The notes under the pieces are model-generated. The model had not been told where the DNA came from. It made no database searches and was given only the letters and a program-made list of their open reading frames with translations. A program made the position numbers and the translations under genes. This document shows positions 50,261 through 56,430 of a stretch of 64,000 bases of DNA, one piece after another (position 1 is the stretch's first letter; each line of letters starts with the position of its first letter). Where the stretch lies: the NCBI GenBank assembly GCA_020161065.1, contig JAIUPH010000008.1, positions 248,001 through 312,000 on the forward strand. Reading direction: 5' to 3'. This DNA is from Pseudomonadota bacterium. GTDB lineage: Bacteria > Pseudomonadota > Gammaproteobacteria > Burkholderiales > Burkholderiaceae_C.

Positions 50261-50300
50261 GATTCGACCGTCACGCTCTTGGCCAAGTTGCGCGGCTGGC
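50261..50300 (-). other. relic of the glmS 3' end (left boundary of the island)
   Basis: On the minus strand this encodes [11 protein letters not shown], the same last residues as the intact glmS ending at 56388, with several synonymous differences (AAC for AAT, TTG for CTC, ACG for ACC). The stop codon is changed to TCA and similarity ends about one codon before the shared block. It is in the same direction as the real gene. Confidence 0.8.
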
Positions 50301-50753
50301 TGCGGCGGCGCGGCTAACTGTTCCGAGCCAATAGTGTGGTGAACCCCGATTGAGCATTGGCGCGGGTTCGCAGCGGGGCGATTCGGCGCCACGCCATCGG
50401 CGTGTCGTGGGCGCGGGCTGGGTCCGAGTGAGCGAGAACAGCCGCAGCGAGCAATACAGTCGTGAACGACGTGTCAGGCGACACGACGCTCAACGGATGT
50501 CTGCTTGAAGCCGACGCTGACACCAGAACCTCTTCGTCGGGCGTCTAGATTCGGCCATTACCAGACATCTGCGCACATCAGCAAAGAGCCATAACGCCTT
50601 GACCAAATATATATCTCAGCCGGTCAATAAGAGAAACCGCGTGGCAAACCAATGCAGGACACGCCCTCCAGTGGCATGACGACGTTTCGGCAAATCACTT
50701 GCGGAGACCTCCGCGGCATACAGGTCTTCATCGGAGGCGCTTTAACAAGACGC
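50301..50753. other. gene-free, lower-GC stretch at the left end of the island
   Basis: About 450 bp without a convincing gene. Only short open frames occur and none shows a recognisable domain or a ribosome-binding site. Base composition is visibly lower in GC than the left flank, with TATATAT at 50610. It probably holds degraded sequence from an earlier insertion. Confidence 0.5.
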
Positions 50754-51311
50754 TCAACGCTTGACCAAGTCGCTCGCATTGCGTCGAACAGCGCGTAGGC
50801 ATTCCTTCTGGACTGATTCATCGGTCATGGCACGCGCCAACATCACGGCGCCTACACTTTGCGCCAGAAGCGCCCAGGCCGCATCTTCATCCCTGGTGAA
50901 TTGGCCAATGAGGTCTTTCATCTCCTGGACGCCCTCTTGAAACCTCTGTCTTGTTGCGCCGTCCGCCCTGGAGACTTCTGCCGTCATCGCCGGCAGCATG
51001 CAGCCTTCGGATGGTTTGGCGACGTGTTTCGTGCTCAGGTAGCCCGCGATGGCCTTCTCAAATTCAATCGGGTGCTCGGGAGGCAGGTGGCTGAATCGGT
51101 CGAGTGATTTCTCAATCTCGGCATCGACGACGGCGCTGAACAGACCGGCCTTTCCGTCAAAGTGCCGGTAGAGCGCGCCACTGGTGACGCCAGCCGCCGA
51201 GGCCAGGGCGTCCACACCGCTGCTGAAGAATCCGTGCTCCTTGGCAAAGCTGCCACTAGCTGCCAGCAGGCTTTGTCGCGTCGTTTCCTTTTGATCTTTG
51301 GGGTATCGCAT
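50754..51311 (-). CDS. TetR/AcrR-family regulator of the molybdoenzyme module
   Basis: The protein is 185 aa. The helix-turn-helix is TRQSLLAASGSFAKEHGFFSSGVDALASAAGVTSGALYRHFDGKAGLFSAVV, followed by a helical ligand domain with GCMLPAMTAEVSR, the YkgA/NemR-like TetR subgroup. The palindrome TAACG-TT-CATTA lies 41 bp upstream of its ATG, and two copies lie before the molybdopterin oxidoreductase gene, so it most likely represses both itself and that operon. Many members respond to electrophiles. Confidence 0.9.
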   Translation of the reverse strand: MRYPKDQKETTRQSLLAASGSFAKEHGFFSSGVDALASAAGVTSGALYRHFDGKAGLFSAVVDAEIEKSLDRFSHLPPEHPIEFEKAIAGYLSTKHVAKPSEGCMLPAMTAEVSRADGATRQRFQEGVQEMKDLIGQFTRDEDAAWALLAQSVGAVMLARAMTDESVQKECLRAVRRNASDLVKR

Positions 51312-51351
51312 GGACTGTTGTCGAGAAGGCTAGCGCGCCGCGCTGGTTTGA

Positions 51352-51363
51352 TAACGTTCATTA
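51352..51363. promoter_or_regulatory. TetR operator upstream of the tetR gene
   Basis: TAACGTTCATTA has arms TAACG/CATTA around a 2-bp centre, one mismatch from the perfect palindrome at 52027. Confidence 0.65.
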
Positions 51364-51408
51364 TCCATGAAGCGGAAGTCGACTGCAATGTTCGTTCGCT
51401 GTCATCAT

Positions 51409-51960
51409 TGACCTGCCCCCTTCAGCCGTACCAACGATGAGGCCGAAGTCCGGGTTGCAAGATCAGCCGTTGTCTTCGTTGTTGGCTGGCTGTTGAGCTG
51501 CATCGCCGGCGAGCCGGCGATGCAGCTCGGCGAACCTGGCTGGCGGCATGCGCCCGATGCTGCTGTGCGGCCTGACTTGGTTGTAGTCGTGTCGCCAGGC
51601 GCTGATCGCCGTGCGGGCTTGGTGCAGCGTCTGGAACCAGTGGTCGTTCAGGCACTCGTCCCTGAACTTGCCGTTGAAGCTCTCGATGTAGCCGTTCTGC
51701 ATCGGCCGCCCCGGCTCGATGAGGACATGGCGTACGCCGTGGCCTTGTGCCCAGGCCATGAAGGCACGACTGGTGAACTCCGGCCCGTTGTCGGTGCGCA
51801 CAGCGCTCGGGTAGCCACGGAAGATCGCCGCGCGGTCGAGCAAGCGCGTCGTGGATGCGCCGGTAGCCGAAGCGCCTGCGCGCGTGCGCGATCTCGACGA
51901 TCCTGTTGCCAAGCTCCGTGGTCATGGGGTCGGTCTCGGGTGGGTTGCGGTAGCTGTCGC
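51409..51960 (-). mobile_element. IS3-family insertion sequence remnant
   Basis: A transposase fragment on the minus strand with DDE-domain pieces RTDNGPEFTSRAFMAWAQGHG and NGYIESFNGKFRDECLNDHWF, ending QVRPHSSIGRMPPARFAEL. Its upstream part RIVEIAHARRRFGYRRIHDAL is in another frame, and roughly 70-100 residues including the first catalytic Asp are missing between. TGACCTGCCCCC at 51409 looks like one terminal inverted repeat; the other end is absent. It sits between the tetR gene and its target operon. Confidence 0.8.
51463..51960 (-). pseudogene. IS3-family transposase OrfB, deleted and frameshifted
   Basis: The HTH_21-type N-terminal piece and the C-terminal integrase core are in different frames, joined near 51840 with loss of the middle. 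The second Asp and the Glu of the DDE triad remain, but the first Asp is gone, so the product cannot be active. Confidence 0.8.
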
Positions 51961-55107: not shown

Positions 55108-55134
55108 GACCTCCACAGAAATGAGGAGAACCAC

Positions 55135-55473
55135 ATGACCTTCGTCGTCACGGATGCATGCATCCAATGCAAGTACACCGACTGCGTGCAAGTCTGCCCG
55201 GTCGACTGTTTTCAGGAGGGCCCCAACTTCCTGGTCATCGATCCACAAGGCTGCATCGACTGTGGCGTTTGCGTGCCCGAATGTCCCGTAGAAGCCATCT
55301 ACGCGGACGACGATCTGCCTGCAAATCAGCAGCCGTTTCTGCAGCTCAACGCAGAAATCGCAGCCAGCGGCAAATGGCCAATCATCACTGCACAAAGGCC
55401 ACCATTGAGCGACCACGAATCGTTCAAGGACATCAAGGGCAAGCTGCATTTGCTGGATCGTGCGGGCGCCTGA
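55135..55473 (+). CDS. fdxA: 7Fe-type ferredoxin (FdxA)
   Basis: The protein is 112 aa. CIQCKYTDCVQVCPVDCF and CIDCGVCVPECP form a 3Fe-4S plus 4Fe-4S ferredoxin with the C-terminal extension of the FdxA type. GAGGAG precedes the ATG. It probably links the ferredoxin reductase to the molybdoenzyme. It is the last intact gene of the operon, with 14 bp overlap to the moaA fragment. Confidence 0.94.
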   Translation: MTFVVTDACIQCKYTDCVQVCPVDCFQEGPNFLVIDPQGCIDCGVCVPECPVEAIYADDDLPANQQPFLQLNAEIAASGKWPIITAQRPPLSDHESFKDIKGKLHLLDRAGA

Positions 55474-55726
55474 TCGACTCCTGATCGACCGGTTCGGCCG
55501 GCGGATCAACTATCTCCGCGTGTCCGTCACCGACCGGTGTGACATGCGATGCAGCTACTGTATGCCTGTCGGATTCAAGGGCTTTGAAGAGCCAGCGAAC
55601 TGGTTGACGCATCAGGAGTCCATCCGCCTCGTTCATCTGTTTGCCACTCTGGGCGTCAGCAAGGTGCGCATCACAGGTGGTGAGCCTCTGCTCAGACGCG
55701 GCGTGGCCGATCTGGCGCGTGGCTAA
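55460..55726 (+). pseudogene. moaA: moaA, 5' fragment only
   Basis: 88 residues starting at GTG 55460, overlapping the ferredoxin stop. The radical-SAM motif VTDRCDMRCSYCMP and the following VRITGGEPLLRRGV are the start of GTP 3',8-cyclase, which is normally about 330 aa. The reading frame stops at 55726 just after this motif, where the sequence switches to a JAB-domain gene. It is truncated and cannot be functional for cofactor synthesis. Confidence 0.88.
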
Positions 55727-56103
55727 CCACAGAGACCGTCGAGGTTGCCAAGGCGACTCGCCTGAAGGCTACTTGGGCGAGTTGGTCTCGAGTCCGCTTC
55801 GATGTCTCGCAGGCCATGCGCGAGCGGGAGCAACTGTTCACGCTTGGTTGGCACTGCGTCGGCTTCTGGCACACGCACCCCGAAGCCGACCCGAAAATGT
55901 CAAACGAGGACCGGGCGTTGGCCAAAGAGCATGCGCGTGCTGCGATGACAGTGATAAACGGGTTGGTGTTTGCCATCGTCGGTACCCAGCCTCTACCAAC
56001 CGGCCTTCGCGTTTGGTGTCATAACGGCGCCGACTTGACTCCTATGGCCTTCATATCGTTGGCATCGGGAGCTGCCGACGTCTGGGCACCGCAGGGTAGA
56101 TGA
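55720..56103 (+). pseudogene. JAB/JAMM-domain peptidase, 5'-truncated
   Basis: The frame is open from 55720 and joins the moaA fragment directly. TVEVAKATRLKATWASWSRVRFDVSQAMREREQLF leads into the zinc motif HTHPEADPKMSNED (HxH, 7 residues, SxxD), then VFAIVGTQPL. Related proteins are deubiquitinase-like JAB peptidases linked to E1/E2-like or CBASS-type operons. The N-terminal strand with the catalytic Glu is missing. An in-frame ATG at 55816 would give a shorter fragment of no obvious use. Confidence 0.75.
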
Positions 56104-56387
56104 GAGCAGTCGCAAAGTCGGGACCATGCTATCGGGCAACCCGCAACTGCAACTGCATCCACAAGTAGCAATCGCTGTCGCGGTTGCGGTTGCGGTTGCG
56201 ACCACGCTCCGCACCGCCCAGCGTCTTGAAGCGCAGTTTCAGGTACGACTCTCGACACGTCCACAGTAAGCAACTACGTTCTCACTGTCGGCAACCTGGT
56301 TAGGGAGTCTGTTTTTCCGTCAGCGACTCTGTTTCCAGTAACCGACTCAATTTCCCGCGCACATAACGCCGCACAAGAGCGTACCCG
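56104..56387. other. gene-free right end of the island, with short repeats
   Basis: 284 bp without a gene. It contains three copies of GCGGTT (56180-56197), GCAACTGCAACTGC (56140), and a run of GACTCTG/GACTC motifs (56306-56350). Neither a Tn7-type end nor an integrase gene is seen. Confidence 0.5.
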
Positions 56388-56430
56388 TCATTCGACGGTC
56401 ACGCTCTTGGCGAGATTGCGTGGCTTGTCC
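56388..56430 (-). other. glmS 3' end, right copy of the island boundary repeat
   Basis: The last codons of glmS ([11 protein letters not shown] and stop) match the relic at 50261-50300 in the same direction. This is the stretch recognised by Tn7-type elements, and the natural boundary of an island integrated at the glmS 3' end. Confidence 0.7.

Follow-up and report, generated by a model that had tools for sequence, protein, structure and literature searches.

A probable decayed Tn7-like transposon within a glmS-end module of a Burkholderiaceae_C bacterium

Behind the gene glmS, a segment of about 6 kb with lower G+C content (GC) was found in the DNA analysed here, a 64-kb stretch (the window) of contig JAIUPH010000008.1 (positions 248,001 to 312,000, assembly GCA_020161065.1) from a Burkholderiaceae_C bacterium, whose genome is called G000. 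Tn7 and Tn7-like elements insert at attTn7, which lies behind glmS. The segment is probably a decayed Tn7-like transposon of 6,045 bp (50319..56363, delimited by its ends, spacing, GC and gene content), standing in a glmS-end module that already existed behind glmS; we give this reading a probability of about 75%. The second glmS end probably did not arrive with the transposon. The locus would first have held a tandem module, made of a glmS 3' end (last codons, stop and terminator-like hairpin) and a hairpin like those of repetitive extragenic palindromic (REP) sequences, in front of an older glmS 3' end. A Tn7-like transposon would then have landed within the module, 24 nt behind the glmS stop, which is the usual attTn7 spacing, and parted the in-frame glmS end from the older, displaced one, and its tns genes would have been lost later. 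We infer a single element with both the left and the divergent right end, a loss of tns genes, a module that preceded the insertion, and this order of events.

The intact glmS (56388..58286, minus strand, 632 aa, from the list of open reading frames (ORFs)) is 82-90% identical to its genus relatives over the full length. Its 3' end is present twice as a direct repeat of 36 bp with 31/36 identical positions, which brackets the segment. The repeat search placed it at 50262-50297 and 56390-56425. The in-frame copy of the glmS end (56388..56423, minus strand) and the displaced copy (50260..50295, minus strand, same direction as glmS) have 36.5 and 41.1 bits, respectively, to the glmS-end model R1 described below. 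The displaced copy encodes the same last 11 residues as glmS, then TCA where glmS has TGA, so that the stop is lost. Five of the 33 coding bases differ between the two copies with 0 residue changes; random substitution gave a mean of 3.4 residue changes, and none in 0.00055 of the trials. The repeat matched at 2 places in the window and at 0 in 100 shuffles, by which a chance repeat was rejected, and these were the only 2 places in the whole genome at E <= 0.001. Between 50 and 56 kb, the six bins of 1 kb had a GC of 0.585-0.624; the following one, with the right end of the island, had 0.644, and the bins outside 50-57 kb had 0.658-0.785. Thus the preliminary description of this DNA, in which two glmS ends with mostly synonymous differences and a relic without stop bracketed an island of lower GC, was borne out, and its 11-codon match is not due to chance. 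Two other places near the displaced copy were observed. At 50534-50570, TCGGGCGTCTAGATTCGGCCATTAC resembles the displaced glmS end with its outer flank (TCGGGCGTCTGATTCGACCGTCAC) and is possibly a third, partial copy within the island. GTTAG occurs at 50242-50246 (minus strand), 16 nt past the lost stop, with letters identical to the left element flank.

The left end of the element (50319..50345, plus strand) is composed of the terminus TGTTCCGA and a first TnsB-like site (12/17) at 50329, and a second TnsB-like site (50452..50468, plus strand, 14/17) is the sole one of at least 13/17 in the window. The inferred right end (56302..56363, minus strand), recognised by its position and its periodicity, begins 24 nt behind the glmS stop with TGTGCGCGGG, which is followed by three GAGTCG/GACTCC-cored repeats 19-20 nt apart. 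Both termini sit on the inner, island sides of the glmS copies, 24 nt and 23 nt beyond the repeat cores. The 24 nt between stop and right end (56364..56387, minus strand) comprise the right TAAC flank together with a terminator-like hairpin arm, and may be read as the near part of a split module. The 23 nt between left end and displaced copy (50296..50318, minus strand) hold the left TAAC flank and close with CCGCAGCCA, which is also found at the right ends of modules in G045, G199 and G350; therefore the in-frame end, the hairpin and this remainder are read as one module around the element, with the 23 nt as its far part. When the window site was rejoined, GCGGC-GTTA-GCCGC was obtained on the glmS strand, and it folds with a z-score of -4.6.

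Several genus mates have TGTTCCGA starting 22-24 nt behind glmS, followed by CAATAAAGTCGTAAACA-like sites about 20 nt apart. When 506,857 bases were scanned on both strands for the terminus together with a site, using a site consensus derived from the relatives without the window, 6 matches were obtained: right ends behind glmS in G017, G031, G043 and G019, a left end in G037, and window position 50319. The spacing from stop to element was 22-24 nt in the four genomes with right ends and 24 nt in the window. In G043, TnsD, TniQ and an AAA protein are encoded 24 kb further along the contig that has the Tn7-like end. TnsD was observed in 1/81 genus genomes. The TnsD search (PF15978), which did find the protein in G043 and matched in 0/14 control genomes, did not find it in G000; TniQ was also not found in G000, a weak negative since the control search matched nowhere either.

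Modules with glmS ends occur in relatives which have no island. The model R1 was built from 30 rows, including both window copies and the array copies of G019, G072 and G070, and matched in 74 of 81 genus genomes at E <= 0.01. Six of the 81 have extra copies behind glmS: G019 and G072 with 4 copies each, G070, G065 and G045 with 2 each, and G000 with its pair 6.1 kb apart. The second copy of G045 has a background-like score of 19 bits and was accepted on its place and reading. In the family, 377/399 genomes matched at E <= 1e-4; the filters were stricter than in the genus search, so that weak matches were lost. Two or more copies were counted by eye in 35 genomes, and a second search covered these as well as G045, G065 and G070. 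In 23/399 family genomes, copies stood on one contig at distances of less than 300 bp. The rest of the 35 comprised three with only kb-spaced copies on one contig (G000, G174 and G335) and nine with copies on different contigs, maybe assembly effects. Loci were read in 20 of the 35, namely 18 of the 23 tandem cases, G174 and G335. In G186, glmS itself is out of view because the contig edge falls at the first copy. In G174 (L233), glmS is separated from a second, longer glmS 3' piece by an insert of 9.4 kb that carries TRAP transporter and CoA-transferase genes, and the far copy of G335 is a partial glmS end.

When the in-frame copy was compared with the next one, synonymous bias was seen in 5/5 pairs, with 0-2 residue changes among 5-10 base differences and P from 0 in 20000 trials to 0.00145, under a null of uniform random substitution that ignores base bias and hairpin constraint; a plain neutral tandem copy was thereby rejected. 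Searches of an open-access library gave no description of tandem glmS ends or of such modules. The recurrent glmS-end modules are the part that a specialist would find new; the island at attTn7 is of a known kind, in an unusual setting.

A module is 99-239 bp long and consists of CAAGCC or a variant (within the Asp-Lys-Pro codons), stop, hairpin, inverted arm and a common hairpin pair. It carries the last ~12 glmS codons, its inverted arm matches its own first codons, and it usually closes with CA or CCA ahead of the next copy. The arm fits its own end better than the next end in 28/34 modules, worse in 2 (G065 and G045) and equally in 4; these modules came from 22/23 arrays (G186 was dropped) and are not independent, with four near-identical ones in G304 and G019 and G072 alike. 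Folding as single-stranded DNA gave z-scores of -5.9 to -12.1 for seven selected modules, of which three had been shortened to at most 150 nt. In the common hairpin pair, changes on both sides were found at 11/20 pairs in 16 chosen sequences. A model of this pair was run on 575,620 bases from 50 sources, where it matched 27 times, in many cases in training copies or in loci that had been retrieved for this repeat; in 667,458 bases from 30 named loci, a single weak match was obtained. The pair recurs at several unrelated places of a genome in the genus (in G000 behind metK, L114, and at C4, L120), and 5 of 9 inspected places have an ORF end no more than 160 nt before the pair, which is metK in two genomes. 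In G000, about 5 kb right of the window (L114:1480-1632), the last metK codons pair with an arm past the stop, followed by the common hairpin pair, and this unit folds with a z-score of -8.3; the metK end of G070 (L115) has a matching layout. Between two convergent genes of G019 and G072 (L111, L112, L113), a terminator-like hairpin and the common hairpin pair together form a tandemly repeated unit, the number of which varies by contig. A known Rfam RNA was unsupported, with no Rfam match at gathering score in 10 loci and none at E <= 0.1 in window 49700-56700 or in 4 loci. A Y1 transposase (PF01797) is encoded in 3/6 array genomes, not in G000, G065 or G045.

The position of Tn7-like ends relative to these arrays was also examined. 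The first end detector gave none in the 23 arrays, because it was too strict, yet it flagged the right end of the window and some single-copy loci; the replacement detector was chosen after that outcome, with a post hoc threshold. With it, a Tn7-like end was found behind the last copy in 4/23 arrays (G115, G379, G470 and G019), behind an inner copy in 1/36 (G339) and at random places in 9/4600, and a further array with such an end, in G045, was seen by eye. Because the ends are mostly behind the last copies and synonymous divergence is present in 5/5 pairs, the data suggest that new units arise beside glmS and push older ends away. The profile scores, which are mixed, weigh against this: the genus profile is matched better by the displaced copy in G000 (41.1 vs 36.5) and G065 (46.0 vs 35.0), and better by the in-frame copy in G070 (42.3 vs 36.9) and G045 (38.5 vs 19.0). 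The inner case, G339, belongs to another genus of the family and has a split layout like that of the window, with clearer parts, both inverted ends and an unsplit module alongside. Its order is copy 1, intact module, copy 2, 25 nt, an element of 1,674 bp, the rest of the module and copy 3. The element (L235) has 16-nt identical inverted termini, and an Xre-type antitoxin and a RES-domain protein are its sole cargo. The comparison of the window with an unsplit module rests on this genome of a different genus. Within the genus, the MarR neighbour of the window was present in only 2/81 genomes, the other one (G060) having MarR and glmS on different contigs, and none of 20 genus-mate downstream loci had the neighbours of the island; besides glmS, they matched only two other window ORFs, in loci L033 and L044. 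The 202 nt beside the right end matched in 81 of 299 family genomes at E <= 0.01, with the best non-self match at 48 bits and mostly in a CAACCG repeat; therefore no relative of the right-end region was obtained.

Several results weigh against a Tn7-like element in a split module. Neither a tns protein nor a tyrosine or serine recombinase was present among the seven island ORFs run against Pfam, as the preliminary description had also reported, so the element would have lost its tns genes and would be at most a decayed or non-autonomous Tn7-like member. The right end reaches only 10/17 of the site consensus of the relatives, and its periodicity, which was equalled by 13/2000 island pieces and 123/5000 window pieces, is modest. 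The flanks on the plus strand are CTAAC at the left and TAACG at the right, with TAAC on both sides offset by one base, so that the target duplication is not clean, and the flanks in G339, AAAAC and CAACG, are not a clean duplication either. The alignment of the left ends of the window and G037 scored 32, not above shuffles (mean 27.8, maximum 47). The scan threshold was set by the analyst, and the visible ends of L042 and L048 fall below it. The far end in G043 was not found, so its tns genes are tied to the end by position only. The hairpin-pair model had no match in the window, where its last ~nine bases were recognised by eye only, and most of the pair is missing from the reconstructed module.

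The preliminary description had proposed an element integrated at the glmS 3' end which brought its own gene end. The location was retained and could be narrowed to the attTn7 position 24 nt behind glmS, and two former functional ends fit the synonymous pattern; the own-end origin was not supported, since relatives that have no island also carry module-borne ends behind glmS, and both copies have the Tn7-like ends on their inner sides. In its general form, the proposal amounts to integration by a site-specific (tyrosine) recombinase at the glmS 3' end, with the own end copy in attP and later loss of the integrase. Two directly repeated gene 3' ends that differ synonymously, as observed here, are a classic sign of recombinase integration. 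However, neither Tn7-like termini 24 nt and 23 nt inward of the repeats nor gene-free modules of 99-239 bp in relatives would be expected from this explanation, the borders of the element are not inside the repeated core, unlike those of a tyrosine-recombinase integrative element, and no recombinase was seen in the island ORFs tested (the search did not extend to recombinases beside glmS in the genus genomes). We consider it improbable.

Two other explanations concern the second glmS end. It could be a by-product of DNA uptake, where a foreign glmS with its tail recombined in and the far side rejoined the old end by chance or micro-homology, the Tn7-like element coming with the tail or later. 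This differs from the split-module explanation only in the origin of the module, and is possible although on the unlikely side. The copies differ as if between species, for example in whole serine codons (TCG vs AGC), and the far copy of G174 is a longer glmS piece that closes the 9.4-kb insert. The similarity of the window glmS, however, shows no fall towards the 3' end, and import of a longer 3' part was unsupported, with no similarity break along glmS. Most arrays restart at or near identical CAAGCC codons (G178 and G470 are among the exceptions), which speaks against random joins, as these would not give a shared restart. Alternatively, the displaced copy might have been kept or shaped as a terminator hairpin or TnsD binding site and would not be a former coding end, its synonymous look coming from this constraint. 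The glmS-end codons do form strong predicted hairpins with the following sequence, a residue change in copy four of G072 improves the hairpin there (by eye), and by profile score the displaced copy does not always look like the native one. Against it, the differences follow codon third positions, the 5-10 base differences in each of the five pairs change 0-2 residues, and the displaced copy of the window has lost its hairpin partner; this explanation seems doubtful to us.

For the cargo, Pfam confirmed the genes that had been proposed for the island. A TetR-family regulator (50754..51311, minus strand, PF00440) is followed by a transposase fragment of an insertion sequence (IS) with rve domain (51463..51912, minus strand, PF13683 and PF00665). 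Three redox genes on the plus strand encode a molybdopterin oxidoreductase (52061..54322, PF00384, PF01568 and PF04879), a FAD/NAD reductase (54319..55107, PF00970 and PF00175) and a ferredoxin (55135..55473, PF11953 and PF00037). A short radical-SAM (MoaA-like) piece (55460..55726, plus strand, PF04055, first 66 of 166 positions) and a Prok-JAB piece (55816..56103, plus strand, PF14464) were also identified. Among 80 of 300 confirmed relatives of the oxidoreductase, identity was up to 68%, with Acinetobacter, Perlucidibaca and Dechloromonas at about 60-62%. A TetR relative was present at 24/80 of these loci, directly before the oxidoreductase on the opposite strand in six examples, so the TetR-oxidoreductase pair is an older unit, separate from the question of the element ends. 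Matches to other cargo at the 80 loci were 32 for the MoaA-like piece, 3 for the reductase and 5 for the ferredoxin. Elsewhere in the window (36608-37117), a 102-nt repeat has five tandem copies, which are 61-72% identical to the first.

A pre-existing module would explain how an island can lie between two ends of an essential gene without an integrase, the attTn7 region itself having been duplicated beforehand. More speculatively, and with little confidence, the glmS modules might be small mobile DNA units of a new type. They would insert at the 3' ends of genes, supply the gene with new final codons and a terminator, and shift its old end downstream, along with any Tn7-like element attached to it. 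The arm before the common hairpin, which pairs with its own gene-end copy, may guide the unit to its target codons as in single-strand transposition, and the window would be the next step, where a Tn7-like element uses the new end and splits the module. If modules are mobile or selected, a common bacterial insertion site would be repeatedly rebuilt, which would bear on the coexistence of hosts with Tn7-like elements and on the number of attTn7 sites per strain. The module arrays make this question testable in several genera.

The locus could be compared with several known systems. Integrative elements at gene 3' ends also give an island between direct repeats with synonymous differences; here, unlike in these, no recombinase was seen in the tested ORFs, Tn7-like termini lie inside the repeats, and island-free repeats occur in relatives. 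The modules are similar to palindromic repeats of the REP type and to bacterial interspersed mosaic elements in that a hairpin pair is dispersed near gene 3' ends, sometimes in tandem, but the glmS unit includes the last codons of the gene itself and a pairing arm. Like integron cassette arrays, they are tandem foldable units behind a fixed point, the newest perhaps nearest, although the glmS unit has no gene and this is a resemblance only. The IS200/IS605 elements and REP-associated Y1 transposases share with them an arm at the hairpin foot which is complementary to the sequence at the unit border; in contrast to these, mobility of the modules is only proposed, and the Y1 gene is present in half of the array genomes and not in that of the window. 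Unlike Tn7-like transposons, the window element is without tns genes, has a divergent right end and an unclean target duplication, and occupies a site with a duplicated glmS end; like them, it is characterized by insertion 22-24 nt behind glmS, a TGT terminus, putative clustered end repeats and variable cargo.

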